DNA from: Protonemura montana | Taxonomy: Eukaryota > Arthropoda > Insecta > Plecoptera > Nemouridae | Assembly: GCA_947568835.1 (NCBI GenBank) | Contig: OX387609.1 | Coordinates: 2,856,001 to 2,920,000 of the forward strand | Direction: 5' to 3' | DNA length: 64,000 bases | Part shown: positions 8,901 to 57,600 of the stretch, one piece after another | Layout: each line of letters opens with the position of its first letter | Position numbering within the stretch: the stretch's first letter is position 1 | Notes under the pieces: generated by a model | The model's database searches: none | What the model was told of the DNA's origin: nothing | What the model saw: only the letters and a program-made list of their open reading frames with translations | Translations under genes and position numbers: made by a program

Positions 8901-11900
8901 CGCCCCCTTTCAAATTTATCGCCACGTCGTCGAAGCGATTATTCTCACCGGCCTCGTGGCTAACGAGAGTTATCATTCACGACGCGCCCGCCAGAGGTCA
9001 CCACGGCCCATTTGCCGACAAAATGACAGGCGACGCAGAGCGAAAATGAAAACAATTTACGAAACAAATTGGTGTGGAAAAAAAAAGTGCGTAACGCAGC
9101 AGAGTGTAGAGTTTGCTGTGTCAGAGCATAAATCTTGACAGAATGGACGCACGCTTCAATACGTTCAACTGCTGATGTTGGTAATTCAGAACAAACCACT
9201 CTTTACTTAGACTCGAGTAAAACGGTGACTTTAAGGGCATTGCAAATTAAATCTGATTTACGAGAAAAGCTTCTAGAGTTTATTGCCTAAGCGACCAATT
9301 AGACTTTCTATCTTCATATAATAAATATATAAAATAACTTGACGCTGGCTATCATTAAATTATTATACCAGGATAAGGACCACCAAAAAACAGCTGACAA
9401 TATGACCCTTTACCCAAAATAACTAATAGGGAACGAAAGTTGTGAAGAATTCGAATATTTTCTCTCATAAGATTAACGCATAAAGCCCCAAGAATCCCTT
9501 TGCCCTGCGATCTAGCTTCTCTCTTTAACTGAACTGCTCTAAACCTTCACCAAGAAGGGTGTGTCGGCCATTTTGTTGGCAGATCTTATCATGAATTTAT
9601 GGTAGACTGTCATTCAACTAATGGTTTATATAATCCAAGTGCAAGATTATTTATTAATTGGAAATTTGCAGCTCAGAATTTATAAAATATAGGCACAGAA
9701 AATCAGTCGAGATTTTTCAATAAAAAAAAAAGCTAGTTCACGTGACACATTGTTGGAAAGACAGAAAATACTTGGCATATAATAACAGTGTCGGGCACTA
9801 GTTGTCTTGACAGTTATTTGGGTCAAACTATAAAACATCTCCCTTTACTCGGCGGTCCTCTTAAATGCCTTCATCCAAGCATTAAAACGTTCATGCTAAA
9901 CGCCATTAATTTTGCAAGGATTCTGCCAACTTTTCTCCAACCCTTGTACGTCTCAATTCCCTTTCGTACAAAGCCCATCGCGTCCTCCTTTAATTTCGTT
10001 AAGTGTGTGAAAAGTAACAAGATGGCCGGCGTGTACTTGCCCCTGATTGCCCCAGAGAGCGTAATGAACTAACTGAATAACAGCAAGTTTATTAAAACTC
10101 CGCCGTGAGCGCTGCTGTGCAGTTAATTGCTGCTGCTGCCGCTTGGCTCACCGCCTTCTGAATAATGACCACGCGCTCATTTCTAGACGGCGTTGCTTTG
10201 GCTTGAAGTTGTCTGCTGAGGTCAATGTTTATTCATCTTTTCTGGTACACAATAGATTTGAAATAATGTTACCAGGAAATCTAATATTCTAATTTAAAAA
10301 TTATATCAATTTTTAGTAACAATACAGTTTATTTCAAATATGTATGCAATAATTACCTTAATTTTAAAACTTTTAGAGTACGAAAAAGGTAAAAGCATTT
10401 GCCAATTGTAATATTATGAACACTATAACCGTCACAAAAATTGATGCCCAAACGGGTTCTTTCTCATTCTCATCTGTCATTCTCATCAAATACACTAAAA
10501 TCGTCTAAAAAAGTTTCCAAGTAGCTCAATTGGTTAGAGCAACACCCGCGACACGTGGAGATTGAGGTTAGAGTCCCTGTTTGGACATCAATTTTTGAGA
10601 CGGTTATTGTGTTGTTAATAATAAAATACCCCGCGCATTGCAAGCGTTTGCAATTTAGATAAGATTTCAACTTAGCATTTGCCAATAACTGCGTTTTAAC
10701 TACAAAGAAAAATAAATATCGAATTATATTCCTGTAGGACCGCAAAGATTCAAGTTTCCTATGGTTCTTTTTACCCTCAATATTTAGCCTCAGAATTTCT
10801 AACAAAAAAGTTTTTTGTTTTGTTTGGAAACTATTGCCAGAAGCAACCAAACAGAAAGTAATACAACTGAAACAAAATCTAGAAATTTCCGAGCGTAACA
10901 ATGAAATAATTATGGAGAAGGAATATATTTTCCTAGAAGAAGTGAATGGTAACTTCAGTTAGATAAAGGAAGTGTTAAGTCAATTAGATATTTACTGGCT
11001 AAGTTCAAAGTAAGAACTAAATATTTTAGTAACTTTCAATATTTTGTTGTGTCAGTTTTTGCCACACAAGCAACATCAATTACAGGTCAAAAATAAACCC
11101 ACTTTACCAAATCACCGCGTCAGTAACTTCACTTTCCAAGTTCCTTCAAATTACTAATTATCAAATGCTGAAACAGATCATCGACGACACGGTTCATGTT
11201 TTCAATGTTAATTCACCATCACCCGAAGACAAATTCCAATCATTTTTCCGATGTCACCAAAAATCATTTTCATGAGAAAACAGTCTCCTTCATAGTTGTA
11301 TCTCACCATCCGGAAAATGCTTCGGGATATTTTCCTCACAGACTTATAAACCTAGATACCAATTTCCTGTGACGTGATATTATTCTAAATCAGTGCATCA
11401 GGAAAATCATTTCCTCGTGGGAAATGTATTTTCCCATCTCATTCGCTTGTCCTTTTGTCGTCATGTCAGCACCCATGACTCACCTAGACTTGCTTTAGAT
11501 GCAGTGCAGCAAAATGTTAACCCATCCAATGTTCTTTATTTTTTATTCTCAGACGGACAGACAAAGACTGTTCTCATTTTCTCTTCTCTCCAAACGCGCG
11601 TTCATTTTCAAAAGAGACGAAACAACTCCAAACGGACTGCTCCATTATAATCTAGCTGTTTCGCGTTAAAGCCAGACTGATTTGTGGTGTTTAACGACGC
11701 ACTGTTTTGACATCTGGCCATGCGGCACTGGTGTAATGGCGTCGGTGAATAAGCAAATTATGGTGATAATGATGATGAACCTAACCTAGGCTAGAAGGGT
11801 GGAGGGGAAACTCGGTGCCGGCACGTAGCCTACTCCTGTTGAAGAGCACCAAGGGGACCACCGGCTTAACGTCCCTTCCGAAGGACGGTACAACTCGAAC

Positions 11901-14900
11901 AGCAGGATTCCTTCACAAATCTATGCTGTCGAGAGGTTGATAAGCAAGGCGAGTGAAGTTGGTGTCGAGAGGTTGATAAGCAAGGCGAGTGAAGTTGCTG
12001 TCGAGAGGTTGATAAGCAAGGCGAGTGAAGTTGGTGTCGAGTGGTTGATAAGCAAGGCGAGTGAAGTTGCTGTTGAGAGGTTGATAAGCAAGGCGAGTGA
12101 AGTTGCTGGCGAGAGGTTGATAAGCAAGACGAGTGAAGTTGCTGTCGATAGGTTGATAAGCAAGGCGAGTGAAGTTGCTGTCGAGAGGTTGATTAGCAAG
12201 GTTGCCAGGTTTAAAACTTTATTTGTTTGTGGAGCAAAACAAACTTTAATTCTTGAGGGATGAAGGCCACGTTTGATGCCAACAATGGGCCACAAATGGA
12301 AATAGTTACCTTGGTTACGAGCCCTAGCAGCCAATCCCCGAACTAAAAACATGTGTACGCTCGGTAACCATAGCAACAAAAAAACAGTTGAAATAGATGA
12401 AATATGTGTTTAAATCGTCAGCCGGGGCAGTGACGTGCCCTGTAACTCCAGCTCTAGAGGGCTTGGGTTCGATAGATTGTGTTAACGCGTGAGCTCGAGG
12501 ACCGTTCATGTGACGATCCAAGTGCGACCGCTTACAACAAGACATTGCGTTTGTCGGCGTTCATGCAGCCGAGGACAACAGAGGACGGATAAGCGCAGCT
12601 CATAGGTTTGAGGTTAGGTTAGACGGTCATTGTCTTAAGATTATACAAATAAAGTAACATCGGCCTCGATGAACAAAATTAAGATGTGTTGTTAGGGTAG
12701 AAGATTCGAGATTCGTTCTGAAAGTGAACTACGTTGTGGAACACGTGCGGGGGACGCAATCTTGTCATGTCGAACCCTTTTTTTTTGACACAAAAAGCGT
12801 CTGCAGTGGAAAATGGCGGATGAAATTCTTGGTGCCAACGTTTTATTGCAAGTCAGCGCTCTTATGTTTTTTGTTATATTTTGAGTTTGTTCCTTTTGTA
12901 GTCCCGGTGATCTTTGCAAATAATTTGCAAAGGAACCTAAAAAAAAGTGACAGGTTACCTTCAAGGGACCCTCTGTGCTAATTTAAGCGCAAGTTTTTGT
13001 TGTTGTTGTTGTAAAACCGCTGACTTTTACTGCGAATTAGATTTTTTTTGTATGGTCATATTAAAAACACAATTTACCATAAAGAAAAAAAGCGAATTAT
13101 TTTTTTGTTCGTTTTCGTGAATTCGCTCGATGCCGGGGAAAGGTTAACCCGATGTCGGCAACCATATTTAAATCTAAGTCTGCTATTGTTGTCAATGCTT
13201 GCAGTGGAACAAATGCTAGGGGAACAACCGAGAATCGTCCGGCAAAATCTCAGAATCTCCCACAGATACGTTTTTAATAACATTCGGTAGGCAAATTTCC
13301 AAAGATTTTTCATAAAAGAAACAAACCATAAAGCAAATAAAATATATACAATTCGCTGTGCTCGCTACGCTCATTTAAAATGTCGGTAAATTACAATCAT
13401 ATGTTTGATTATTATGAACACTATCAACCTCTCAAAAATGTGTAATACTTAAGTGTATTCATGACTTGCAAATTCAAACTGGAAATCAAATTGAGAGATG
13501 TAAAGAAATCGCAAGTGACTTTAAGATATAAAATTCGGTGGAAGACTTTTTGCTTACATTGCCACTGTAAAATATGCCACCAGAAATTTCAGAACCACCA
13601 AAACCAGCACAAAAATGTAAAGTGCGTTGCAATAACCACCACATCCCCTACGCATCCCCTACGCATCTCCCCCTCAGCGGCATTTTCAACCAAAAAACAT
13701 CTATATCCCCCTTTCAAAAATCAATGTTCGACATTTTTCCTCTCGGCGGCTGTCTGCCTATGGCCGTGGGTCATCGCGAAAAGTGCGCTAGATTTTTCCC
13801 CCGCTTTTCATCACCCAGACAGAGATTCGTCCACATGACATTGACGTTCGCCCAAACCAGAGGGCGCTAGCGACTGACTGGCAGGGCAAAAAACATACTT
13901 CCTGAGCTCTGCACTCAGCAGAACCGACAAGCGACAGCACCTGTCGAACTGCATTTGTCTGTCGGAAGGCGTTCTACAAGCGAAGAATCTGATTCCATTA
14001 ACAACGAGTGGAGCGATCGGTGTCGCTATAATTGGACCAAATCGCTGCCAGTGGACAACGAATCCAGCGCCGAGATATCGCCTCGAAGTTGAGGGCGAAA
14101 GCACGGTTTTTTTGAGACGATTAATTTTGACGTTTCTACGCGTCACGATGTAAAAAGGAATGGCAGGAAATGAATCCAAGTGCTTTTGTTTGGAGATGAT
14201 AAGTGCAGTGACGGGAACTCGAGACTCGGAACTGACAGCCAACTTTTATCGACAGAGTTTTCAAATCGTTACCAATTTTCACGTTGCGTGTCACTTTGCT
14301 GGGTTTGAGTGCTGAGGTCTGCAGGCGTGAGTTGGTGTCGGCAAATCAGCGAGTTACTTGCCGATTGTACTCGACACGGCATGGTCTTAAAGAACACTCG
14401 ATTTAAAATTGAATCTAAAGGCCACAGCTTCATATATTTTTGTCAAGATCAATAGAAATTTCGAAAAATAATAGTGATATATATTTTTTTTTATAAGAGG
14501 CTCCAATTTAAGAGCCATCAAGACTCGTTTTTTTTTCTCAGGAGCTATACCCGTGGTAACATAAGATAGCAGAATTGAGAAGCTCTGTCAGGCGATCTCA
14601 GCATCTCCATGGCTACCAAACGTTGAATCTACCATTGAACCTTCTATGCTAGGCCATGATATACCCGTGGTAACATAAGATAGCAGAATTGAGAAGCTCT
14701 GTCAGGTGATCTCAGCATCTCCATGGCTACCAAACGTTGAATCTACCATTGAACCTCCTACGCTAGGCCATGATATACCCGTGGTAACATAAGATAGCAG
14801 AATTGAGAAGCTCTGTCAGGCAATCTTGATGGGCTTAAAAGTGGTGGTTATATTCAAAAACAACTTGTCTCAGCATGTTTTGTTAGGAAAATAGTTTCGA

Positions 14901-17900
14901 GCTCTCTGAGGCTGCTATAATTGAAAAGAAAGAACATGAAAATGAGTTAAAATGTTTTTTCATTTTCTCTCCATCATGAAATGCATCTCGGAAACAATTC
15001 TGACATCATATAAATCGTCCAGTCAGCTACGCGACTGTCAGAATGACAATTTGCAGCTTGCAGCCGAGACGAGTGAACCACTTAGCTAATCTTGGATTCT
15101 CTACAATCGAACAAACGCTTCTCCCGAGTGGAGCGTTCCAAATACTTGACACGCGTCAATTCCAGTCGAGCAAAATAAACACCTCTAAAGCCGCACCCCG
15201 TCCTTCGCCCTGCCCCACCCTGCACCCAGCAAGATCGTCGCGTGCGTCCGACGTAACTTGTTCAACGACGCATTGTGCAACGACGAGGCATTGTGAAGAC
15301 GTCACTGCGAGACGAGCGGAACAATGCGCCGATCTTTTGTCTTCGCAGACGAGATTATGGTGAAGTGGGGAAGATTAATTGATCTTCTTTTTATCCATTG
15401 CGGTATGGCAGCACAATGCTTGCCGAACGCGACCTTCGAAGTTGTAGGATTAGCATGGCGAACTCGCGTCTTATTGTACGGGTCTTACTACGTGCAGAGA
15501 TTAAAATAATTTATTGCTTTGTAAGAAAAATGAGAAGCTATGGTAGAAAATTGTGGAGGCTTTCCTTAAAATGACTCGGAAGTTCTCGCAATATCGATTT
15601 CCTTCTTGTAGGAAGCCGTGCAACGTTTGTTTTATCACTTTAAAACCGCCTGCCATTTCTCTCAGAGGAAATAAAGATTATGCCTTCAAATTCAAACCGA
15701 AATCCACGAATTTATATCTTTCCCACTGTATGTGACGTCATTAACCCAACTCCAAATATGTCACAAGTCCGCACGACGTCCTTTATGCCCGTGACACAAA
15801 CGCACATCATTAAACAGTCCAATATTATCTCGGAACTGCTCTAACTTTCTCTCTCTTAATCGCAATGCTGACCCAATACGTTTGTCTCTTTCTCCCTTGC
15901 AGACAGCCCTTCGTTCGGCATCAGCCGCGTGCCCGGATTCGGGTTTCCGGTCCACGAGGGTATGGCGATCTCTCTGCGCTGCGACGTCGACTCGAACCCC
16001 CCGTCCAGTCCCGTCTGGGTCAAAGGTAACCACCCAACCCCTGGACTGACGAGTTAGTGCACTCCATTAGCGAGCGAGCGCGTTGTGCAATCAACTTGAC
16101 GGCCCTAAAGTTCGACCCTTGCTACAATTGCTGGTCATCTCAGGGTCAAAGTCGCGTCCAATCACAGGCGTCGGTCACAGCTCAAGTTTTGGACCGGCAC
16201 GTCGTTTTGAGTGTAAAGTGATTTAATTTCGTTGTTCGTATTTGAGACTGGTTCATGCTCTATTTAGGCCAACGTCAACGATTGATATTTAGAGTCATAT
16301 TATTTAATCGTATAGATTTTGCCACAAGCACAATCGGGTGGCACCTACCGTTACCAAGTTTTGCCGGCATCGTTTGCTCAGCAATACATTAAACATTCAC
16401 GCTGTCAGACTTTATCAATAAACTCAGTGGTTATCTTTGTTTTGACAAATGTACTGTTACTACAATGAGTGTTCTTGCAGATGACGGCCCGCCGCCAGTG
16501 GCGCAGTCTGGCGACGGATTTCTCAACTTCAGCTCTATCCGCCGGGAACACAGCGGCTGGTACAAGTGCACGAGTCGCCATCTGTTGGGAGAATTCTCAT
16601 CCATTGGCTACTTCCTGAACATACGATGTGAGGAGGAGATTTTAACTTACATTTTACCTTTTTATTACATCCAGTCATGACAAAGAGTCAGGACCAGCTT
16701 TACATTTTCCAGTTGAATAAGCAAACGTTAATAAAAAACATAGTAAGTAACATAAGTAAAGGTTAATATGCAAGAAGAAGTATCTGATTGGCTGTAACCG
16801 TGGTGATAAATGAACTGACAGTTATATTTTCATACTGGTTAGTTATGCTCTGAGTCAGGTGTTGGATGGGTGACCATCATACACATGACCAGTTCTGTTC
16901 GGTAGAGAGGTTGGAGGGATGAAAGTTAAGCAACACTGCGCTGGGTCAGATTTCGGATGGGTGATCATCATACACATGACCAGTTCTGTTCGGGAGAGAG
17001 GTTGGAGGGATGAAAGTTAAGCAACAATGCGCTGTCAGGCATTGGATGGGTGACCATCACACACATGATTAGTTCTGTTCGGGATAGGCTGGTGGTATTA
17101 AAGTTAGCACCCAGCTCTACTCTCTGTTCTTTCAACCTCTCGACAGCGTAGATTTTTGATTGAATCCTCTTGTTCAAGTTGAACTGTCATTTAAAAGAAC
17201 TTTGAGCCAGTGGCCTCCTCGTTTACCACAGTAAAGTAGCAAACTACGTTCCAGCATCGGGTTTCCCCTCATTTTATCTAGACTATTTTAGGTTCATCAT
17301 CATCTACTTATTTCACCGACCCCAGACCAGTGTCAGTTCACCACAAAAAAATCGACCATCCATGACAGACTCCTTCATTTGCAGACGATCCTGGCGAGGT
17401 GACGCAGGACCCAGGACCTGGGGAGTCTACTGACGTCCAGGTAGCGCTTGGTGGCGCCGTGCAGCTGCAATGTCCGTCCGGCGTGCTAGGATGCTGGAAC
17501 CGTGTCGGCACCCAGGTGGGACAAGTGCTCAAGAAACATCTTCAACTCAACACACCTTTACAGTTGACAGATTTCACCGACTTTTGGCCTCAGTTAGCTG
17601 AAAGGCTTGGCATTTTTATTGACGCTTATGGTAGGTTAGGTTAGGTAAGATTAGGTTAGGATAGGTTAGATTAGGTTGGGTTAGGTTAGATTAGGCTGGG
17701 TTAGGTTAGATTAGGTTAGGTTAGGCTGGTTTAGGTTTAATTAGGTTAGGTTAGGTTAGATTAGGATAGGTTAGATTAGGTTAGGTTAGGTTAGGTTAGG
17801 TTAGGTTATGTTAGGTTATGTTAGTTTAAGTTAGACTTTTCTATTGACGCGTTGAGTTTATGAACTGCTTATGGTAGGTTACTTTTTCTAAATTGTAAAG

Positions 17901-20900
17901 TTATAAATTTAAGTATATATTTACCTACAAACTAACATGCTACGTCTTGCAAACACAGAATTTGGCAGTTATGGACGTGTTTCTGCCACACTTTGATAGC
18001 AAATCAGTAACTACTTTTGGCTTAGTTAAGCTGAATACCCCAGTGGCTTGGCGTTTGTATGTATTTTTTACTAACTCATCTGTGTTTTCAGGGCATGCTG
18101 GAGCCAGTTGGTCCTGGTCCCGAGCTGACTTTGGACAGAGTTCTCTACCAGGAGGCGGGCGACTACCGTTGTGTGGCCGGTAAGAGGGACATCTTCCCCC
18201 GGCATTGGAGGGAGAACCACCAAGTCAAGGTCACAGTCACGGGTAAGTAAACTAACAGTTGGTAAAGAGTTATTGGTATAATTTAAGACATTGATAACAT
18301 ACAATTGTAATAAGATCACTGTAAAATCATTATAAAAGATATGATTTGGCATTAGGACATGATTGGGTGGCATTCTTCTTATGACAAGATGCACATACCC
18401 TTCTCCCCCACCCCTCCTTCACCCTCCCCTCCAATACAACTTAAACCAAAACAAAATGTCACCTTTTTTTAATGTGGTCATTCTAGCATATTGATCACCT
18501 ATTTACTCCAAAAAAGATGAAGAGATTAAAGATGGAAACTCGTAAACAGCAGTTAACTAATGTGTGATTGTTTTTAGACTCATGTCTACTTCATGTAACC
18601 TTAGCACTCGATGGGAAATATTGGAAATTGAGTTGCTCTTTAGCTTAGCATTCAAAACCCAGTTCAAATAGTTTTTGTCAAAACTAAACATTTGTGTTTA
18701 AATACTTGCAGGCCGACCCGTGGTGTACCTCAGCAACAAGACGTTGTCAGCGACGACGGGACAGCAGCTCAACCTGGCGGTGGAGTTCTGTGCTAACCCG
18801 CCCGTCACTCGCGCGCTCTGGATGACCTCGTCGAGACTGATAGCGCCCGGGACACAGCAAGACAACGTGGTCGCACATCAGGTCACGGTCAGTACTGCAA
18901 GGTCACATGAGTCATGACAAGGTCACTCATCCAGCCTGGTCGAGGGAATGTCCTGTGTGGATTCATGAGAAAAAGGTCATGGAAATTAAAGTTAAGGACG
19001 GAGTATCATACTCCGAGGCACGTAAACGACTGCAGCTTTTTGCACCAAAATTCAGCCCCCTCAAATCATTTGCCACTGCAACAGCACACCCAGAGAACAC
19101 TCAACCCTCGAAAAAAAATTCAAGACCAGAAATAGAAAGTCTCACGCAGATGATGTCGCTCGTTTTAGCAGGTCAGAAAGAAAATACAGATAAACTAAAC
19201 ATTCAAACCAAGAAAATTGACGAGCAAACAGACCAGATCAGACAGTTACGAGAAGAAAATCAACAACTCACAAAATCAAAAAATTAAAAACGAACTCACT
19301 GTCCTGAAAACTCAATCAAATACACCTACCAAAAAAACAACAACAACCAAAACGACCAGTCGAATACAAAAAAAAAATACCGATAGAAATGTCAATAACA
19401 AAAACAATTCCAAGATCCCAAAGCTGGATGCACCTCAAACCTCAGATGACGAACAAACTAAGGCTTGTGGCAAAAAGGTTCACGAAAGAATTACTTTCCA
19501 TACCACTGACGAGGACGATGAGTGTGAGACCTCGCTGTTGACGCCCCTATAAACTCCAATATCCATTCATTCGACAAGGTCGCCACAAGGTCACTACTTT
19601 TTGTCTGGACAATTTCATGTTTCATTCCAGAATTTGGTTATGCACAATAAAATTGGTACGTCAGCAATACTCGTACAATTAATGAAAGCGTTGACACAAT
19701 AAAAGGGTTTTATTTACCTTACAATTTCTGTTCTTAGCTAATTACAATATACAAATACAATACAATATCAATCCAATATACAATTTGCATATCACAATAA
19801 CACAATCCACAATCCAATCCAATACAAATCCAATAACACAATTTCAAATCATTTTTAACCTCTAGTGCCCCAGTTTCATTCATTTTTCTCAAAAAAAGTA
19901 ACAATTATGTATTTCTTTGCCACCACAGAACGGGAGTTCGTCGCATTGTCACCAGGCGGTGCTGACGGTCCGTCAAGTGACTCCTGCCGATGGCGGGGAA
20001 TACGTGTTCGTGGTGAGATCGCCCCGAGGTCTGGCCGAGGCTGCCGTCAACGTGAACGTCACGCGTGCCAGCGGATTCTCGGTCTCGGTCGCCTCCAACG
20101 ACGTCGCCGCCCAGGCGATAGTTGGCGTCGCCATAGTCTTCGTCGTAGCGCTGGCGCTGGCGCAGACTCAGGTGCGTTCATCTTCCCGCCAACCAAGAGT
20201 CACTCTTATGATGCATGGGCTGGAGTCAGTTATCTATGTTCGGTTCAATTAATGACAGGAGCTTAAGATGCACATAGAACCTGATTAGCTGTCATCATGG
20301 AAATTAGTCTTTAACTGGCAGTTATCTTTGATTCATTTCTGGTGTTTAACGACGCACTGTTTTGACAACGGGTCATGCGGCACTGGTCTAATGACGTTGG
20401 TGAATAATTAGATGATGAGGATGATGTTGAACCTAACCTAGCCTAGAAGGGAGGAGGGGAAACCCGCTGCCGGAACGTAGACTACTCCTGTCGAAGGCGA
20501 CCGCCGGCTTAACGTACCTTCCGAAGGACGGTACAACGTGAACAACAGGATTCCTCCACAAATCCATGCTGTCGAGAGGTTGATAAGCAAGGCGAGTGAA
20601 GTTGCTGTACTAACTTTCATCCCTCCAACCTCTCTCCCGAACAGAACTGGTCATGTGTATGATGTTCACCCATCCAATACCTGACTCAGCGCAGTGTTGC
20701 TTAACTTCGGTGATCTCACGAGAACCGATGTTTCCTACACAACAAACCGTTCGGTGTAGTTATCTTATTAACTTGACTTTTTTAAACAAGCTCCTAGACA
20801 TACATGCATTTTATTTATATTTTATTTATGCTTGAAACCTTTATTATTAAACACATCAAAGTTAAAGTCGTTAAAGTTAGCGATCAGGGTTTCGGATAAG

Positions 20901-30772: not shown

Positions 30773-33700
30773 GTAAGTGAGAAAAAAAACGCCAAACCCC
30801 CTTCAAACTTTAGTGAGATATTGCTGTGCAACTTTCATCATTTGACCCATAAAAGAAAAAAAAAGTATTTACAATAAAAATACGATTTCAATTTCGTAGG
30901 ATGCAACTGTTCCGATTCTAGAAATAGTAAAATTTTGGGAAAATTAGGTTTCGACGTTTCAAAATGATCAAATGTGAAGAACAATGTTAGACAAAATTGC
31001 GCTGAGGTAGTAAGACATTTATAGTTAGTTTACAGATTGAAAAGCATACAATTACTAAATGTGTATCTAACTAAAAATAAAAACGTATTGATGGTCAATG
31101 TCGTTGTTAATTTTATTTCTGGTGAAACTTATTCAAAAGGTAGCATAAAATTGATCCAGTTCTGTCATGTCAATCTTGACAAGTTAATTTGGTCTTTTTC
31201 TTTGCCCCAGAAACCCGGGTGTGGACACCAGAGTCATCGTAAACACCTACTTCGACCAGATCATCGCGTTGATGAAGGACTACATCACCAACAACGACCT
31301 GCAAGTGATGTCCATTCCAGACGCTCTCATGGGATTCTGCGTGGTAAGCATTCGCTTACAATTCACAGCGTTTGAAACTGCTGTTTGCTGTTGATTTGGT
31401 GTTGATGTCATGTGTTCCTCCGCAGCGCTACCTGTTCATAGACTGGCACGGTGAGCTGGAACTGACCCAGGGTACCCTGACCGACCTGTCGACCATCTCG
31501 AGGGAGGGCGATGCAGAGCTCACCTACGGAGTCATCAGCAACAAGATGAACGTCAAGGCTGTTATCGGGTTCGGGCTGATTGACGTGAGTCTAAACTAGA
31601 AGTTTAATTTCTGACCTCAAATGTCTTGGCAAGTGGAAACCAAAACGCCACCTACCAAAACCTACACCCTCTACTTTCGTACCAAAACGCTGCACCCTCT
31701 AGAAGTCATAGGCTTGGGTCCTATTTTCAATACACCGGAGCACAGTGGGTGACAAATGATGACACATGAGTAAGACTTTGATTTTCTTACGTAGTCACAC
31801 TTAGGGGACCAACAAGCAAAAAATAATGTACCAGACCCAGGGCTTTGCTGTGTAACTTTGTTTATCTAAGTAGAATCAATTAACAGATGAATCTTTGTGA
31901 TCCTATATCAAGAAGTGCTTATTCACTCTCTGATTTGTGGTGTTTAACGACGCACTGTTTTGCCATCTGGTCATGTGGCACTGGTCTAATGGCGTCGGTG
32001 AATGAGCGGATGATTATGAGGATGATGGTGAACCTAACCTAGCCTAGAAGGTAAGAGGGAAACCCGGTGTCGGCACGTAGCCTACTTCTGTCGAAGACCA
32101 AGGGGACCACCGGCTTAACGTCCCTTCCGAAGGACGGTACAACGCGAACAACAGGATTCCTCCACAAATCCATGCTATCGAGAGGTTGATAAGCAAGGCA
32201 AGTGAAGTTGCTGTACTAACTTTCATCCCTCCAACCTCTCTCCCGAAGAGAACTGGTCATGTGTATGATGGTCACCCATCCAAAACCTAACCCAGAGCAG
32301 TGTTGCTTAACTTTCATCCCTCCAACCTCTCTCCCGAACAGAACTGGTCATGTGTATGATGGTCACCCATCCAAAACCTGACTCAGCGCAGTGTTGCTTA
32401 ACTTTCATCCCTCCAGCCTCTCTCCCAAACAGAACTGGTCATGTGTATGATGTTCACCCATCCAATACCTGACTCAGCGCAGTGTTGCTTAACTTTCATC
32501 CCTCCAACCTCTCTCCCGAACAGACCTGGTCATGTGTATGATGAACACCCATCCAATACCTAACTCAGCGCAGTGTTGCTTAACTTTCATCCCTTCAACC
32601 TCTCTCCCAAACAGACCTGGTCATGTGTATGATGGTCACCCATCCAATACCTGACTCAGCGCAGTGTTGCTTAACTTCGGTGATATCATGAGAACCGGTG
32701 TTTCCAACACGGCAAACTGTTCGGTATTCATTCTCTGATATGATATGGATACTAGGGACAGAAAGAATAGACATTTCTTAAAAGATGGGAATCGGGTTTC
32801 AACGAATGACAACAATATCTTGGTCTCATTGTGCAGTTCTACTATGATTACTTGGCGTACATCATGAATATCGGACCAGACGGAGGCGTCGAGGCCAAGG
32901 TCACACGACTCACCTTCTCCGTCGATATTGAATACAACACGAAGACTGGTGAAGCTCACGTCAACGACATCAGCGTATGGAACACAGGGTAAGATTCGAT
33001 GAAAATTGGATGAAAGATATCTTCTTATGTAGAATGGTAACTGGTTCTGGAAGCATTGGAAATTTCTGCCATGTTCCACTGACCACTGTCCGTTGTAGAC
33101 AATATGCAAGGTATTTCTGTTTCTGTCAAGTGTTAACAGACTGTTAATTTTCTTCTTGTATTCTTGACTATAAGTCATAGTCCTCGTCGCATTGTGTTCC
33201 TACTATTTCTATATTAATATTACATTTCCCAGCACCTATCGGTGCTAAAACATGAGGTTTTTTTCCCGAAATCACACGATTTTTTTTCGAAAACAATCTT
33301 TTAAATGAACTTGATCTTATATTGAAACGAATTTAAATTAAAAAAAAAGGGAAACGATCGCGAATTCGATCGTTTTTAAATATCGTTTTCCGACAACGAT
33401 CTTGAAGTTTTCAAAATATCGATTTCAAAACGGTTTTCCCCAACTATGGCTCAACTATTGCAGCAGTTTCTTGAGCTAATAGCAGCCCACTTTCAACGCT
33501 GAAATAGATGGAAAGTAAGGGCCCAGCGGTGCATTCAAGTGAACCACCAATTCCTAAATTCCATGAACACTGGAACTTAAGTAGAATCAATTAATTTTCT
33601 ATTTTTATTTTTGCTTTATCAATTTCATACTCAAAGGATTCGCGAGTTCGCGGCGAATAAAAACCAAGTCACCTTGTGAACGGACCATATGACTTAAATT

Positions 33701-39648: not shown

Positions 39649-42600
39649 CTGAACAAAAGGACACGAGTTTAGCTGCGTAATCAATCTACAGTTCTACCGT
39701 TGAGTGTGCAGGTTCTAGGTACAGGCTGAACGTTGATGTAGAACAACGGTTTAACATCAAGGTTCTGTCTCTACCTAGAACCTGCACACTCAACGGTTTA
39801 ACATCAACGTTCTGTCTCTACCTAGAACCTGCACACTCAACGGTTTAACATTAACGTTCTGTCTCTACCTAGAACCTGCACACTCAACGGTTTAACATCA
39901 ACGTTCTGTCTCTACCTAGAACCTGCACACTCAAAGGTTAAGCATTGACATTCTGCCTCTACCTAGAACCTGCACACTCAACGGTTAAGCATTGACATTC
40001 TTCCTCTACCTATAACCTGCACACTCAACGGTTTAACATCAACGTTCTGCCTCAGCTCACCTTATCGTTGCGTTCGCAAAGGAACTTGAGTCGTTGTGCC
40101 TTCTTGTGCATGAACACGCCGTCCAAGTGACCGGTCTCCACGCTGCGGATCTCGATGGCCTTGTTGCCCCAGCCCATGATCTGCCCCGTTCCAATGTAAG
40201 CCACGGACGTTGGCATCTCACCCCACTGCAGAACGATGTTCTTCGACACCTGCCAAGATGACAAGACAAATCAAAGTTTAACAACATTGCATTTTTTGTT
40301 GTTGTTGTTGTAATAGGGAAATCTCCTTTAAAATATTATTTAATTATTATCATTGTGTTCAAATACGCGTTTAAAATAAAATCTGACGTATTTTTTCTTT
40401 TTACAATCCGATCATAACTTTTCTCTTTCTATTTGTTTTAAGAATGGCTAAAATATAAATTCTCGTGGTGCGATGAAAACTGGCTGTGACGTCAGAAATT
40501 CTGTTCTGACGTCATTTTGGGTCACCTTTGCGTTCGCTTCTGTTTCTTGACGTTTTTTGTCGTCATACTGACGTCAGATATCACCTCATGTCATAAAAAA
40601 TGGCGACCCTCGTTTTCGCACGAGATTGAAACGCAAACATTTTAAACAGAGATATTTTATTTAAAATTGGATTTAGAAGAAAATAAAAAATATGTGTTCA
40701 TTATTTTCTCACTCAAAAAAATAAAAAAATAGTTTTAAATTTAAAGAGATTTCCCTATTATTGTACGTTTTCTATTACATGTTCAGTCCATTTGCAGCAA
40801 ATGCGAAGCTTGTCTGCGGGTGCTGGATGGGTGTTTCTTTTCATAGGTGCACGTAATGCGCCCAGGAAATGCAATGGGTGTAGGTGTACGGATAGGTGTA
40901 CGGATAGGTGTACAAGCGCTGTATTGGGCATGTGACCATCATACCCATAACCAGTTCTGTTTGGGAGCGTCATAATTTTTTTGGGCAAATTCCTCTAACC
41001 CAAGATTTCCATTTTTCAATTTCAATGCCAGCGGCACATCATTGGACTCTAGTACAGCAGAACATGATCAAGTTCATCGTTGCGAGCAGTGTTTTAAAAT
41101 TGAAAATGTGATCATCTAAACAGCAGCAATTCTGTCGCTGCATTCTTTCCAAAGCATTGCACAAAAACTATAAATAACTAGCTGATTGGATTTGCTGATC
41201 AGAATGGATTTATCATTTATCATTAAATGATGGGGAATCCGAAAATCATCACGTTCAGCCACATTGGATTTGACTAGCCCACGGCCAAATAAGTGTATTG
41301 TTCGACTAGCTGCATGGCACGGCACTATAGCGTACATGAAAGGTCGAGCGCGGAGAGAGACTCACCTTGCCGTAGGTATTGACGTAGACGCCCTCGTTGT
41401 CATAGCAGAGCAACAGTTGCATGCCATTGGAGTTTGGCAGCGGCACGATGCAGTGAGGTGAGATCGGCCCTTGCGTCTGCAGGAACAATCATCGGCACGT
41501 TACGATACGATTCTCGTTGCTCGCGTATCCACACTTTGTCTAAACCCTGAGCTGGACTGGATCCCATCGCAGATACCAAATTCCCGTTTTTCTCGTGAAG
41601 ATTAGCAAGAAGGGAATGTTAGGTATAAAATCAAATATGTTTGCTGTGACGGAACAGTGCTTTCTTAAAGAAATACCACATTGCAATGTCAATTTCAATT
41701 TTTTTTCCATTTATTTGTGCAATTTTTTTCTTTTGAACCTTTCAAAATACCAGAAAATCAGGAAAAATGAATTTAACCACAACTTAACTTTCACCTATGA
41801 TGGTTTTTAGCTCAAGTCTACTTGATTTATCCTTAGCACTTTTTTTAAGAAAAACTATTTGAAATGGGTTTTTGAAAATACAAAATACATTAGTTTTTAA
41901 GTTATTGACTCTGATTATTTTATTTAGATGCATTTAGGAAGCTTGAACTAGGTAATTGTTATAATTTTATGTGGTTCTTTTGTTATCAAAAAATTGTCAG
42001 GACTGCTCAAACCCTTGAAGAAGTAACTAGTATAAGTTACGAAACGTCGGGAAATTTAGTAGCCCTTTACTTAGCATTCAAAACCCAGTTGAAATAGATT
42101 TTCCTTTAACCTAAATACAGTTACAGTATAATTGTACTGGGTTTGAAATGAATAAATCAATAAATAAATAAGAAACCTTACTGCCAACGTTTAAAGGAGG
42201 TGTTTCCCGCAAGGCAACTTTTCGTACACTCACGTGCTTGGGCAGGTAAATGTCGTAGACGGACGCCGAGTCGAGGTCGACTGCGTGGAAACCGTCGGCC
42301 GAGCCGTAGATGACCTTGAGTCTCGTGCCTTCCTCGACGGTCAGGTCGACAAGCAGCGGCCGGTGGGCAAGGTCACCGAACGACTGCAAGCAGAGCGCGA
42401 AGTCAGGCGAAAATTGTCAAATGTAAAATAGAAGAAAGTGTGGTGGCAAAATTTAGTACTAAGCAGTTCTTTAACAATGCTAGTCTTGCCTATGTTGAAA
42501 AAGCAGTTTTGCTTTGCAATAGGAGTGCAATTAGCTATCGACCAGAAAATACATCAAATGCCGAAGAAAGATGTTAACGAGTTTATTTCAATCTTTCCTG

Positions 42601-45600: not shown

Positions 45601-48600
45601 GCTAACTAAAATCATTTCCATATTATGCGGCGTTAACCGATGCCGCCTATCTGATAAAATGTTTTTATATGAGGAGAACGATCTTTCAACATCACACGAC
45701 GTTACTGGGGCATATTTTAAATTACAGATTTGAGAGGGGGACAAACAATCTTCTCCAAAATCATATGTGTCTCCTGCCATAATTTTCTGCACTCCACACA
45801 ATGGCTTGTAAGAAATATTCTTATTCAGTACATAGTCCAGTTTGTTAAGTGCTACTTTGGCACGGCCACCGGGAGCTTTAGACAGTTCCGAGTGGAGATC
45901 TTGTATTATCTGAAGCGATGTCGTCAAAGGTTCTCCAATCGTCTCTAGCAATTTTCTTTTTCCAGGAATGGTACCAAAATTGGATTTAATATATATCAGA
46001 TCGCTAACTATTGATTTGGATGTGAATAATTTCTGAATGGTTTTTATGCTTGCCGCCTATTCTGGATCAAACGACACTATCACTGATTTGACCTCCTCAA
46101 AGTGGTCACAATAGAATAGCTGCCTCGAGCCACGATCCCCAACAAGTGATGATAGGTTCAGGTGGCAGCGGAACTCCAGGTAGCAAATTTCGATAAGTAT
46201 TTATCCTCGATGGAGCTTTAGAAAAAACTTTCTTGGTACATGATATTAGGGTGTTGACTTCATCATAAAGATTTCTTACTGTTTCTGCAACTCGGTGTAT
46301 GGCATGTGCCAAGCACGTTAAATGGTGGAGATTGTAGTAGATGTTTTGTAACACTTCCCCCGCTTTTACCATATATGGTGCTGCATTACTAATAAGAAGT
46401 AAGACGTTCTGATTCATGCCGCCACTAGGCCACAAAGACAATAGCCCCTCATTAAACAAACTTGATACTGTCTTATGATTTGTCTTCTCTAACACATGAG
46501 AGCAAAGAAGATGTGGTATACAAGGTCCCTCGTTGGTTAACTTCCCTACTATTAGATTAGCGATATATCGCCCCTCTACATCGGTTGTTTCATCTACACT
46601 TGTCCAGATGTCATGTGTGCCGATGTCAGCGCGGATCCCTTCTTACGCCATTTCGTATGATTTGGGAAGATATCCTTTTCTTATAGTTGACGAGTCGGGA
46701 ATAACTTTATTCGAATATTTTGAAATAATTTTTTGTACCTACACATAATTTGAAAAAACGAGAGAAATTCAGAATATTTAGTAAAAAGGCCAAAACATGC
46801 AAAAACATGCAAAAAAAAACAAAAATATGCAATTTTCAGAAAAAGTACCCAAATATGCAAAACATGCAAATTAAAAACAGCATTTTTAGAACCAGGGAGT
46901 GATGAAATGGATATATCCACGTTTTTGCATGGGATTTAATGCATAAATCAAAACATGCAATTGCATAACTATCCTATCTCTAATTATCACCATGGTAACA
47001 ACTCCCAAAATTCTGGAGACACTACACTAAAATACACTAAAATTGTCTCAAAAAGCCAGTGTCCAAGTAGCACAATTGGTTAGAGCAACACCCGCGACAG
47101 GTGGAGATCGGGGTCCAAGTAGCTCAATTGGTTAGAGCAACACCTGCGACAGGTGGAGATCGGGGTCCAAGTAGCTCAATTGGTTAGAGCAACACCCGCG
47201 ACAGGTGGAGATCGGGGTCCAAGTAGCTCAATTGGTTAGAGCAACACCCGCGACAGGTGGAGATCGGGGTCCAAGTAGCTCAATTGGTTAGAGCAACACC
47301 CGCGACAGGTGGAGATCGGGGTTCCAGTCACCGTTTGGGCATCAATTTTTGAGACCGTTATAGTGTTGATAATAATCAAAAAAATCTATCAATTGCCTGT
47401 GTGACTGTACGTACCCCAGAGTGCCGCGCAGAGAATCTCCGAGTTGAATCGCTTCTTGTACTTCCTGATCTCGGGCGTGTCGGACCCGACGTCGTGGCTG
47501 GTCGGAGTCACGTTGACGTTGACGTGGGACTCGCGACGCGACGGTCCCGTCCCGCCCGCGCCGAACCCGAACGTCAGGAACGATCGCTGCTTCTGCGACA
47601 ACATCGCGGGCGGCTTTACGGCGTTTCGATACTGCGGAGGCGGGGGAGAGAAAACAAGCACACGACGGGCGGTTAGTCACTTCTAGGTGCGGAGCTCGCT
47701 GCTGGTTAGTTCGTGCTGACGATCGATTAAAGCTGCGTTTGTTAGTTAACGATCGAAAGAAGCAATCGATTAGGTTTTTAAGAAAAATGTATTGTCATTA
47801 AGAAAAACTATTTGAAATGGTTTTTGAATGCTAAGTAAAGGGCTACTAAATTTCCCGACGTTTCGTAGCTTGTACCTGTTACTTCTTCGAAGGTAAAAAA
47901 AAAAAAAAAACCTCTGAAGAAGAAACTAGTCTATGTTGCGAAACGTCAGGAAATTTAGTAGCCCTTTACTTAGCATTCAAAAACCATTTCAAATAGTTTT
48001 TGTCAAAACTAGTGTTAAGGATAAATCAAGTAGACATGAGTATAAAAACCATCATCGTCATTGCTATGGTGACAAAGGAAAGGGAGGGAGCGCAAGTTAC
48101 CAGAGAAAGAAATCGGTGTCGTGCATTTCTCTCCGAATGTATCTGACAACGACATTTAGGCTAAAACGTCAGAATTCTCAGGAATTCGAGATATTTCTCG
48201 ACGATTGCACCCAACTTTTTTCTCCAATAACTTCGGCTACTTCTCCCTTTCGTTCTTCGCCTTAGTAAATATCCCATCTCTCGGCACCCTATTGTATTGA
48301 TTAATTCAGCTAGTTTTTAATACCTTTACATGAATGGTTAAAAATTTAAATAATAATATTAAATTTAAATACTTTTATCTTACATAACTTGAAGCAAATG
48401 ACCTCCGAAGCTCAATTTGTACATCGAGATACTTAGCCGTTAGAGCCGATATGTTAAGCAAATTAGTGATTCACATTTCTAAATTAAGTTAAGTGTCAGA
48501 TTGCGAGCTAACGAGATTAATGTCACGTCTAGAACGTTGTCACCGCCGTTCACCGACATCGAATCGAGCATGCACCGCCGGTCAGTGCAAAGTGCCGTGC

Positions 48601-51600
48601 CGGTCGGCGGTGATTCCAAACCAAGGCACAGAGCGGGTACGCGAGCATGAAACTTGAGAGGGGCTGGAACGTCGCCAATTGCAGACCAATTTTACAAACA
48701 AAAAAGTGCCCCGCTTTTACGTTTCCCTTGGTATTTGATCACCAACATCCTGTTTTTACCAAATTCTTCAGCTATGAGTTTAGCTTCCAACTCACAGAAA
48801 CATCTGAATTTCACTGCATGTGATTGGAAGTCGTCATGGCAACAGTTTCAACAAAATGTTCAACTATAAGTTGGATCTCTAGCTCACAGAAACTTCTGAA
48901 TTTCACTGCATGTGATTGGAAGTTGTCATGGCAACAGTTTCAACAAAATGTTCAACTATAAGTTGGATCTCTAGCTCACAGAAACATCTGAATTTCACTG
49001 CACATGATTGAAAGTCGTCATGGCAACAGTTTCAACAAAATGTTCAACTATAAGTTGGATCTCTAGCTCACAGAAACATCTGAATTTCACTGCATGTGAT
49101 TGGAAGTCGCCATGGCAACAGTTTCAACAAAATGTTCAACTATAAGTTGGACCTCTAGCTCACAGAAACATCTGAATTTCACTGCATGTGATTGGAAGTC
49201 GTCATGGCAACAGTTTCAACAAAATGTTCAACTATAAGTTGGATCTCTTACTCACAGAAACATCTGAATTTCACTGCACGTGATTGGAAGTCGTCATGGC
49301 AACAGTTTCAACAAAATGTTCAACTATAAGTTGGATCTCTAGCAAAACGAATTCACCGTTATTGATGTGAATTTAAATGTGTGTATCGGAAATGAATACA
49401 AGCGACTGAATGCATAGTCGAGCGAACATTTCTCGATTAGTTTGGTCTTTGAAACAATGCATTTACATATGATAACACTACGACCAAAGGGACTAACGGC
49501 TATGACCGTCTTCTATTCTACGCCGCTTTGCGTCTTGGTTTGGAAACGGCCGCACGTGAGTTACAAAGTAGATAGCCGTGAGGTGACGTAGCGTACTTAC
49601 TTGAACAATTAGTATCACTGTACAGGGACCGTGTTTTGTGATCCCAGCTCGTTAGTCGAGTTACGCAAGAGAGAGAAGACAGAAAGTAGTGGATTAGTGA
49701 ATGCACTTCTCGTGAAAAATACTGTACAAACACAAACACAAACACAAACACAAGGTGTGTGTGGGCGGCAAACGTACACATGCTGAATTGCAGCAGAGAT
49801 TTTTCACTAAGCTAGGAAAGCCAGCAACAATCGCTTTAAAGATTGAAAGGTAAAAAACAGAAATGCATATGAAATTTATTGCAGCTGAGATTTTTCACTG
49901 AGCTAGGAAAGCCAGCAACAATCGCTTTAAAGATTGAAAGGTAAAAAACAGAAATGCATATGAAATTTATAGAAAAAAAAAAATCAGCTTTTAATCAAAA
50001 CTAGATGCTGAACGGTGCCACTGTCAGTTTGACATAAGACTGTAAAGGCAATCTCTGCGTGGGAAAACAAGGTGGTGTTTTTACTAGTCGCATGCATTTG
50101 TAAAGAGCTTCTACGATGCATTTAACCGTATGGCACCAGCACTGTTTTATGATTTGCTTCTAAATTTTTGAAATATTTAATATAAAAAAAAAAAAACACA
50201 AAGCTAAAAAACAAAAGCACATAGACAAACAAAACACACACACACATCTGCATGCAGAGGACCGGTAATTTGTTCTTGTACGCAGACACGGCTAGAAATT
50301 GATAATAATTTGTATTTCCGTGGTTTCCTGGACGACTCAATTAAATTAGGCTGTGATTAGAAGTAATTTCTAACAAGTGCAAATAGATTTAGACAAGTCT
50401 GTCGGATTTCATCAGTAACTAAGGTAAACCACAAAATTTTAAACACACACTTGAAAGTTTATGATATTTATAAGCCGAGGCTCACAATGATTAAAAAAAA
50501 TTACAAATAAAAGTTTTCTTCCTGAGCAAGTCAACGGATACCACCGCGACCGATGTTTCCATCACTCACCTCCTCGCTGGTCGACTTGTCCTGTCGTTGT
50601 CCGGGAGTACCCGGACTGGACGACGTCTGCGTGAGCAGATCCGGGAGCACGGAGCTCGTACGAGAGCCGGGCGTGCCCAGCTGACCGGGCGACGAGTCCA
50701 TGCGGTGAAACCCGTCACCGCCGCGGTTCTACAAGGAAGAGAAGTCAGGCAACGTTCGATTGTCAGGCCAAGATCAACGATAGAGCCTTCGTACACAGAG
50801 CTACTCATCTTTATTGATACCACTTTCATGTTTTTATTACTAATATTCGTAGAAATTGTTCGTCTTTGGTTGTCAATCAGGTTAATGTATATTAGTTTAA
50901 TTGTATCATAGAAACCAGACAGGTTTAATTCAGATATTTGCCAGAAGAACTGACTGACAAACTGACTACCATTTTACTGACAAATTGGTTTAGTCAAGCT
51001 ATGAACCACCGTGTTTCTAAGAGGTACACCTCTCCTAATAATTCTTTTGTTAACTTGTAAAATTTGTATTATGTGATCTATCGAATATGTGCATGACCGT
51101 CTTATATCAACCTTAATCTCTGGACATTACATTTTTTTTAATTTTTTTATTATAAAGAATTCTCTGCCGAACCATTTTGTAATCTAAGATCTTATCCGAT
51201 ATTTATTGGTTTATTGGAATGTTATCATATGCTTTTAGATGACGATCTTATTAAGCCATTGAGCAAGCCGGGAAGCTTTTGCACTCTATATGGAAACCAA
51301 GGGGAACTTTGACATTCAACGCTGTGATTTTCTCTTCATAAGGTAGCGACTCAGACCTGTTTATGGTACAAAGGCTTTTGTGAAATTTGGATGATTCAGT
51401 TTTGGATTTTGTCATGAAAAGACTGATTTAAAATTTAGTATGAACTGTAATTTACCTAAATGTTTGAACTGAATGAGGATTGAATCGAAGCAAACGTTGC
51501 TAGTGAATGCGTGGGCGATTTTGAATGCGATTCAACGCAAAGAAAGTTACCAAACCTGATGTCAACGACCCTGCAAACTCAAACCTACAGGCAAAGTAAC

Positions 51601-54600: not shown

Positions 54601-57600
54601 GCTAAAATTGGTCCTCGTTTGGGCATCAATTTTTGAGACGGTTATAGTGTTCATAATAATGTAATACCCGCGCATTGCAAGCGTTTGCAATTTAAATCAA
54701 ATTTCATCTAACAAAAACATCTACTAATCTTCTTTCTAGCCAACTCCTGTACACTCGAGTTGTATTTCAATTAAAATGCAGACCCAGGAACTTAGCACAT
54801 TGAAGAACCTGATTGCAGCGGCTTTGTTTTCGACCACATCGCATCTTAATTTGTAACGCGACGTGAAAACTCTCAAAGCGATCACATTCCCGTTGGTTTC
54901 CGCACGAAACAGTGCCGGGTATTTCAATTACCGACCTGGCGACTTATATCTCCGGTCCCCGGTAGCAACACTCACCCTCTTCAAGACCAGCGTTCGGTCG
55001 CCGCTCTCCTCTTCGTCAGGTGTTGGCGGCAGCGGACGGTTCGGGGCACCGCTCGATGACGGTCCCACTGCGAGATCAAAACATCGGCGTCAGCATTTCA
55101 CAAAATCTGCCAGACTCGTTTATTTTTTATTTTTTTATTTGGTGTTTAACTTAGCACTGTTTTGACAACTGGTCATGCGGCACTGGTCTAATGGCGTCGG
55201 TGAATAAGTGGACGATGATGAGGATGAACCTAACATAGCTTAGAAGGGAGGAGCTGAAACCCGGTGCCGGCACGTAGCCTACTCCTGTCGAAGACCAAGG
55301 GGTTCACCGGCTTAACGTCCCTTCCGAAGGACGGTACAACGCGAACAACAGGATTCCTTAACAAATCCATGCTGTCGAGAGGTTGATAAGCAAGGCGAGT
55401 GAAGTTGCTGTACTAACTTTCATCCCTCCAACCTCTCTCCCGAACAGAACTGATCATGTGTATGATGATCACCCATCCAATACCTGACCCAGCGCAGTGT
55501 TGCTTAACTTTCATCCCTCCAACCTCTCTCCCGAACAGAACTGGTCATGTGTATGATGGTCACCCATCCTATACCTGACTCAGCGCAGTGTTGCTTAACT
55601 TCGGTGATCTAATGAGAACCGGTGTTTCCAACACGCCAAACCGTTCGGTTCCAGACTCGTTCTCTATCTTATTATTATGAACACAACCGGATCAAAAATT
55701 GATTCCTAATTTCAAGTCCCCGTTTGGGCATCAATTTTCAATACAGCTATAGTGTTCACAATAATAAAATACCCCACGCATTGCAAGCGTTTGCAATTTA
55801 AATGAGATTTCATCTAAAAACGTTCTCCGAAATGCGCTCTTTGCAATCTTATTCTGAACTATTACATGTTGAATCGACTTTAATCACTACTTTACATGAA
55901 CTAGCCATCAAGCTTCAACGCTGCCAAGCTGGGATTTCAACTTTAAAATGGTGTTCCACTAATTTTAAGACCTGCAATGGTTAGATGATGTAATGAAGGG
56001 TATGAGCAAACCTTTGAAGATCTATTTTGATCTATAATATCTATAATCAATTATTTACTTTGCCCTCTAGCTTAGAGATCACAGCTTCACTATGGTCAAT
56101 TTAAGAATGAGCAGTTAAAATAGCTGACTTCATCTGTATTGGAAAATGTTTCTTGCAATTCCGAGCGGGTTTTCACGGTGAAACCATCGGCAATAGGTTA
56201 GTTAGATACAGATCTAACAGCCTGCCTTGACCAATAATTTTGCGGTGCCCTATTCCCCCTATGTAAGATACTTTTGTCTAAAGAAAAATCAGCATTGCCT
56301 TTCTTATACAATTACTCGAATTAACCATTTGGAACCAAAACGATAGGCATAAGGCATAGGCAGAACCTCACTAATTTTTTAAACGCAACAAATTTTACAT
56401 GCCATGCTCGTGTTCCCCAACCTTAACGGTTTTAATCTTGTCGTTCTGATACGTACAGCCACGCCAAGTGTAAAACGCAACCCAACCAAAGCTGTACATC
56501 GAGACGGCACACGAATCAATCTCACTACGACGACGACTGCAGGACAAAACTAACCAACACTTTCCACACGGCTACCAAAAGCGTGAAAGGCAATTTAACT
56601 TTCAGTTCCCAAAGGTTTTAACCGTTAAATTACACAGACGCCTGCATCACTGCATTACTATAATTAAAACACGGAGAGTTAAGTCACGTGACATGCATGC
56701 AAGTTTCGGTAATTAACTTCAGCGATGCTAATTTAATTTAATGCGACATTTGAAAGCCTCACTCTAGTTAATTACATTATTCTTGTTGCTGTAATTTTAT
56801 TGTAATTGAAAACTCTCAAGTCTTGCAGTATATTTGATAATTTATTGTTTTTTTGTATTTAGTTTTTTTTTTATTTAAATTTCTTTATTTTAGAGAGCTG
56901 TAGAAGAGCTATAAGAATGATTGTTTTTAGACTCATATCTATTCGATTCTTAGCATTCAAAACCTAGTTCAAATAACTTTTGTTAAAGCTATAAGAAAGG
57001 TCGGTACAGGGTGTGTACAACAAATTGTGGTATTTACATAACTTTAAGTATAAATTAACTATATGCATAAATAAGAAACATAATCAAGATTCAATTTTTA
57101 ATTAACTATCAAAGTATTCTTTGATCGAGGACGGCATGATTAGCAGGAGATGGCGCTTTAGTCTACGTGTCTGAAGGTTTAGTAGACTTATAATTTATCA
57201 CAAATTAATAGTTCTGACTTCTTGAGTGACAAGCTTTGATATGATATTTTGGTGTCATAAAAAATGAACAGAGATCAAGTATGAATGGACACAAATTGCG
57301 TTCGTTAAACGATTTGCTGTGCATCTCAAGTTGCATTTTTTTCCGCAAGAAACTCGCCATAGGTTTGAAGCGGAGATTAAATGCGTGCGAATCACCGAGA
57401 TGGAAAATAAATTCCTTAGAGATGACTTTACATATCAGTTCAGAGTTTTAAACACGCCACCATTAAATCGAGCCAATGTTTACGTCCTTGGGACACTATA
57501 AGGCTTCTAGCTGCAGGACTAGTTGTCAAAAACAGAGCATCGTTAAACCCCTGATAATCAACCAAACAAAGTAAGAGCGGCTCACCTTTAGGTTCGTGCG

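Follow-up and report, generated by a model that had tools for sequence, protein, structure and literature searches.

Short interspersed elements (SINEs) of the SINE3 class, which are derived from 5S rRNA, carry a 5S-like head with an internal Pol III promoter, followed by a body, and are flanked by target duplications; to our knowledge, multiplication of a unit is not part of the definition of this class. Foldback-type elements carry tandem subrepeats in their inverted ends. 5S-derived SINEs are treated in PMC10886601 and PMC5063351, and among the open-licence papers listed no title or abstract opening names another 5S-derived SINE with tandem units. The closest described system is that of the SINE-derived satellites (sSats) reported by Vassetzky and co-workers from 56 squamate genomes (PMC10702118). 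According to that paper, an inner part of the SINE is tandemly repeated, in snakes as a 67-nt unit containing box B, and the arrays comprise few to very many units, are mostly of independent origin and occur in several variants. They are also biased towards subtelomeric sites, the more so when long, with plain SINEs as a less biased control. Satellites derived from 5S rDNA in the fish Hoplias and the frog Physalaemus, referenced in PMC12692304, are 5S-related too, but judging from the titles they stem from 5S genes and not from a SINE.

The arrays described here agree with squamate sSats in those features that could be tested. A portion of a SINE is tandemly repeated, and SINE sequence flanks the array on one side or on both; the repeated inner segment includes promoter boxes, as does box B in snakes; and the arrays are concentrated towards chromosome ends. 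The original prediction knew of no described family built this way, which does not stand beside the squamate sSats, built alike and subtelomeric as they are. These sSats differ in being formed from tRNA-derived SINEs and in mostly keeping one SINE end, while the present element has a 5S head and often keeps both ends, and position is tested here against age and subfamily, a further point of difference. Our main reading, to which we assign a probability of about 0.7, is that a promoter-bearing 91-bp segment of a 5S-derived SINE is turning into a satellite by tandem growth after insertion.

The window, that is, the whole stretch of DNA analysed, comprises 64,000 nucleotides (C12:2856001-2920000). 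The genome measures 258 Mb in 34 contigs, and 247.6 Mb of it lie in 11 of these. The SINE consists of a 47-bp head, n 91-bp units and a 289-bp body. The window holds the following copies and related elements.

31934-32724, minus strand: whole five-unit SINE copy
32678-32724, minus strand: 5S-like head (47 bp) of the five-unit copy
32223-32677, minus strand: five tandem 91-bp units with 5S A and C boxes
31934-32222, minus strand: body (289 bp) of the five-unit copy
32725-32739, no strand: target duplication on the 5' side of the five-unit copy, with one mismatch to its 3' duplicate
31920-31934, no strand: target duplication on the 3' side of the five-unit copy
7563-8171, plus strand: three-unit copy, units at 7610-7882
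20336-20754, minus strand: one-unit copy
55140-55648, minus strand: two-unit copy, units at 55420-55601
16846-17303, plus strand: degraded headless copy with about three units
11681-12201, minus strand: SINE copy without the 5S part, with 7-8 tandem copies of a promoter-free 36-bp piece of the body at 11924-12201
47061-47341, plus strand: tRNA-like element, its first 52 bp repeated five times (47061-47322)

The predicted ladder of one, two, three and five units at 20.3, 55.1, 7.5 and 31.9 kb was confirmed, with the longest array at 32223-32677, where identity at a lag of 91 bp was 0.948; in 20 mononucleotide-shuffled versions of the window it never exceeded 0.36. All four of these named copies are flanked by target duplications 9-15 bp long, the 31.9-kb pair having one mismatch. 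Across 31 SINE copies, 15 had target duplications with a score of at least 8, against 4 of 155 in the control with mismatched flanks, of which 1 of 155 reached a score of at least 9. The first 120 bases of the four named copies match 5S rRNA (Rfam RF00001) with 43-67 bits. The 91-bp unit starts with the A box AAGTTAAGCAAC, which is identical to that of the 5S genes of the genome in an alignment with five of them, and the C box part GGATGGGTGA is common to the SINE copies and the five genomic 5S genes, the 7.5-kb and 20.3-kb copies having one altered base directly following it. The unit had been said to hold an A box, an intermediate element and a C box; it does carry the A box and the greater part of the C box, but the intermediate element is not kept, the stretch between the A and C boxes having diverged from the five 5S genes in the aligned window copies. 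With its 5S-related 5' part containing A and C boxes, its target duplications and its copies dispersed through the genome, the element resembles the SINE3 class and, on these features, probably belongs to it. It is a 5S-derived SINE with a diverged intermediate element, and we do not regard an intact one as strictly defining the class. In the one-unit copy the direct repeat AAGTTA bounds the unit, 91 bp apart, and the direct repeat ACAGCA bounds a body piece, 36 bp apart.

Other repeats were observed as well. At the start of contig C11 (C11:70-49868), 5S genes occur in groups of two on the plus and one on the minus strand; the groups recur roughly every 9.5 kb, which looks like linkage to some further repeated unit. 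Within the window, a 92-bp satellite unit that by eye is unrelated to the SINE is common to 1987-2367 (about 4 copies) and 48791-49343 (about 6), and a 47-bp tandem unit is common to 39744-40053 and 62753-63086 (about 7 copies each). A degenerate TAGGT-type (TTAGG-like) array lies inside the chromosome at 17632-17834. The sole Pfam match of an exon beside the SINE, to Grp7_allergen, was below threshold (E 0.07).

Allowing at most one mismatch, we found 7,592 junctions of head and unit in the genome, 23,702 between units and 7,356 of unit and body; the reversed-sequence controls gave zero matches. The lists of junction places, each giving the first 100, serve to indicate presence and not density, and the unit-unit list lacks minus-strand places that occur in L016, L017, L018 and L021. 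Among 50 sampled copies with both head and body, 31 had one unit, 7 had two, 4 had three, 3 had five and 2 had six, and the longest were one each with 8, 9 and 11 units; the longest headless array sampled had 49 units (L017). The unit number in sampled copies thus ranges from 1 to at least 49. One register is common to all sampled 91-bp arrays, which counts against growth after insertion. Arrays with a 92-bp period also occur: one in which the 5S head is followed by 45 bp from the start of the unit is joined to 91-bp units in L016 (minus strand, approximately 7480-8220), and head-unit junctions lie 92 bp apart at C1:1225130-1225612.

The multi-unit state is strongly associated with chromosome position. 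Our first sample was blind to the array, being defined by a rare one-base variant of the body that occurs at 77 places on 11 chromosomes. Copies were classed by what lies upstream of the last unit, which classified 60 of the 77 (33 multi-unit and 27 one-unit); the other 17 were dropped because the copy was truncated or had neither head nor unit upstream. Classes in this sample were set by hand, with four degraded heads (L074, L082, L083 and L118) judged visually to be one-unit and L072, whose second unit is truncated, scored as multi-unit. On chromosomes of at least 25 Mb, multi-unit copies made up 10 of the 14 lying up to 3.5 Mb from an end and 0 of the 11 deeper ones; on chromosomes below 25 Mb, the corresponding counts were 12/13 and 11/22. 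The 3.5-Mb cut was picked post hoc, and the regressions take distance itself. In a logistic model of 54 copies, from which six body pieces (L166-L171) were left out, the multi-unit state depended on distance to the end (p = 0.0005) and also on the length of the chromosome (p = 0.02), but not on subfamily as defined by three sites (p = 0.72).

A sample of 53 copies from C1-C4, which overlaps the first (L049-L068) and in which the C1 loci L009-L048 had been selected through an exact match at the unit-body junction, gave the same picture, with 22 of 28 copies multi-unit within 3.5 Mb of an end and 1 of 25 deeper. Distance was significant with body divergence and subfamily in the model (p = 4e-6); subfamily added signal (p = 0.009) and body divergence did not (p = 0.89). 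Within the subfamily with 72T/79C in the body, multi-unit copies made up 1/7 in the interior vs 16/17 near ends, and among copies less than 5% diverged 1/10 vs 12/15. Five-unit arrays lay within 3.5 Mb of an end at 37 of the best 40 places, compared with 31.5% of random points, 33 of 77 SINE bodies and 23 of the best 40 matches of the one-unit SINE; in these best-40 sets overlapping rows were removed by hand, and some array places are close together. Arrays thus prefer subtelomeric sites and plain SINEs are less biased, as in the case of sSats. The number of units depends mainly on chromosome site, in what looks like ordinary local satellite growth rather than a novel promoter architecture, and in the present samples position predicts the outcome better than subfamily or age.

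The units themselves give information on when the arrays grew. Adjacent units in one array differ by 4.4%, compared with 6.0-6.5% across loci, and adjacent-unit identity is 0.949 for n = 2, 0.918 for n = 3, 0.958 for 4-6 units, 0.966 for 8-13 and 0.974 for more than 13. Homogeneity therefore climbs with array length apart from n = 3, a further characteristic of SINE-derived satellites. In the three arrays of more than 13 units, likeness at three variable sites drops with spacing (F from 0.65 to 0.43 over eight steps), and it also drops, less smoothly, in arrays of 8-13 units. Three-unit copies show no such drop, and in them adjacent units (F 0.29) are less alike than the first and third (0.64), which counts against growth after insertion. 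Private variants that units of a single array have in common were too scarce to inform. In copies with two or three units, the units are 2-10% different from one another. When the unit-unit difference is divided by the difference between body and consensus, a ratio of 2 corresponds to a duplication as old as the insertion; the ratio was 1.31 for n = 2-3 (14 loci), 0.62 for n = 4-6 (7 loci), 0.74 for n = 8-13 (8 loci) and 0.48 for n > 13 (3 loci). These values indicate that the longer arrays grew well after insertion and that the first duplications are older. By the same measure, the duplications at n = 2-3 would on average be about two thirds as old as the insertion, and some of those in two- and three-unit copies may have been present already at insertion.

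End bias is also seen in arrays without the 5S promoter. The junction of the 36-bp body piece has 2,386 matches genome-wide, and of the 100 exact matches listed, 65 are on C1 at 31.1-32.7 of 33.1 Mb and 35 on C2 at 0.55-1.22 Mb. The tRNA-like element at 47061-47341 has no visible relation to 5S, and its 52-bp segment presumably contains an A box, judging by the motif; all 40 best-scored genomic matches to its arrays lie within 3.3 Mb of a chromosome end. Among the matches listed, the 36-bp and 52-bp arrays thus share the end bias of the 91-bp arrays. Because the promoter-free 36-bp segment and the segment of the tRNA-like element behave alike, the promoter content of the 91-bp unit seems incidental.

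The number of units had been predicted to be either copied with the RNA or expanded afterwards. Of these alternatives, expansion after insertion is favoured over an RNA-copied number, because n forms no clades and depends on chromosome position. Most likely, a second unit arises when the 6-bp direct repeat AAGTTA undergoes slippage or recombination, after which unequal exchange or replication slippage would add and remove units, probably faster where recombination is high; retroposition would spread mainly one-unit copies. Recombination is in general high near chromosome ends and on small chromosomes. The proposed test, whether copies of equal box number form clades, gave a divided answer. For exact n there are none: among 27 multi-unit copies, the class of n required 15 changes on the body tree compared with 14.3 after shuffling (400/500 shuffles as low). 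One- versus multi-unit state does cluster on the tree of 57 bodies (10 changes vs 19.1; 0/500 shuffles as low), as would be expected if a SINE master of two or more units had been retroposed, multi-unit copies forming an inherited subfamily in which only the longer arrays grew later. Location also clusters on the body tree, however (48 copies, 11 changes vs 16.3, 2/500 shuffles), so that subfamily and position are partly confounded. The 72T/79C subfamily is rich in multi-unit copies, accounting for 25 of 33 compared with 11 of 42 counted as one-unit, a class that in this tally takes in copies with a partial unit; yet no added effect of subfamily is seen in the first sample, the one blind to the array (p = 0.72). 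Target duplications (score of at least 8) at 6 of 14 multi-unit copies, against 4/155 in the control, also fit such a master, but an active one should hit chromosome interiors, where multi-unit copies on large chromosomes number 0/11 and 1/25 in the two samples, and this shortage persists within 72T/79C and among copies less than 5% diverged. At unit site 22, A predominates in one-unit copies (21 of 31) and in first units (12 of 19), but last units mostly have G (13 of 19); this difference could reflect a founder carrying two unlike units or exchange among loci. Little positional identity of first and last units was seen beyond this site, and first-first and last-last units are hardly more alike between loci than first-last ones, which speaks against the master. 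We consider an inherited multi-unit lineage unlikely, and retain it at that level because of the site-22 pattern and the age ratios, the units of n = 2-3 arrays being old.

Far less probable still is that multiplication of the promoter is adaptive for the SINE, either by increasing transcription or by letting promoters survive 5' truncation, with many-box copies as favoured sources. In accordance with this proposal, aligned copies retain the A box together with most of the C box, and the unit consensus is free of TTTT. However, the last two units of the 31.9-kb copy each contain TTTT, and this motif could stop Pol III. If an inner promoter drove transcription, headless copies would be expected to start at unit positions 44-48, but only 1 of 25 (one of them cut by the locus edge) does so (L062, at 46); the remaining starts are scattered from 1 to 66, several of them at 1, where a degraded head upstream was missed by BLAST. 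Box number forms no clades, and the promoter-free 36-bp arrays show the same end bias among the matches listed. The functional promoter ladder that had been proposed is thus unsupported. It is equally hard to believe that the arrays, or their differences in length, are artefacts of assembly. Tandem arrays are prone to mis-assembly, but here the junctions number in thousands, units inside one array differ by several per cent, and the dependence on chromosome position is lawful. Growth of the 91-bp segment after insertion remains our preferred explanation.

Some interior arrays on C1 form inverted pairs, and the 300-bp segments L177 and L178, which lie immediately within two of these pairs, are the two ends of one dispersed repeat: the best 40 matches to each form 33 pairs, all of them inward-facing and spanning 2,553-2,794 bp (for example C1:20985005-20987695). 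Identity among these best 40 matches is 98-100% for L177 and, apart from itself, 96-98% for L178. A 30-base piece of L177 occurs at 46 places genome-wide, and 27 of the 40 best-scored L177 places lie within 3.5 Mb of a chromosome end. The junction-listed range of C1 contains four core copies, at 19.04, 20.98, 22.42 and 23.32 Mb. All four, when checked, had unit-unit junctions just outside the core, and at 20.98, 22.42 and 23.32 Mb SINE parts flank it on both sides in inverted orientation. The sole five-unit array more than 5 Mb deep among the best matches listed (C2:12.0 Mb) adjoins a match to L178. This 2.7-kb repeat flanked on C1 by inverted arrays, the core of which was read as two stretches of 300 bp, is comparable to foldback-type elements. 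We therefore suggest, tentatively and at somewhat less than even odds, that the 91-bp arrays also form the variable-length inverted ends of a young, foldback-like mobile element with a core of 2.55-2.79 kb. This suggestion is graded down because two more inverted pairs of multi-unit SINEs, 3-4 kb apart (C1:8952343-8956288 and C1:26088484-26091794), contain no L177 piece, the 8.96-Mb C1 copy (L041) runs on into sequence unlike L178, and two L177 frames of 65 and 71 aa had no match in Pfam.

If the foldback-like reading is true, SINE arrays travel in two vehicles, as SINEs and as the ends of a foldback-like element, and the latter could bring arrays to the inner parts of chromosomes, in which arrays rarely grow locally. 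Spread over the chromosomes, the roughly 7,400 copies of one SINE place a single starting sequence at thousands of sites and amount to a natural experiment on how satellites arise, read out as array length. In it the drivers of satellite start and growth, such as recombination rate, the chromosome end or chromatin, could be tested directly with a genetic map.
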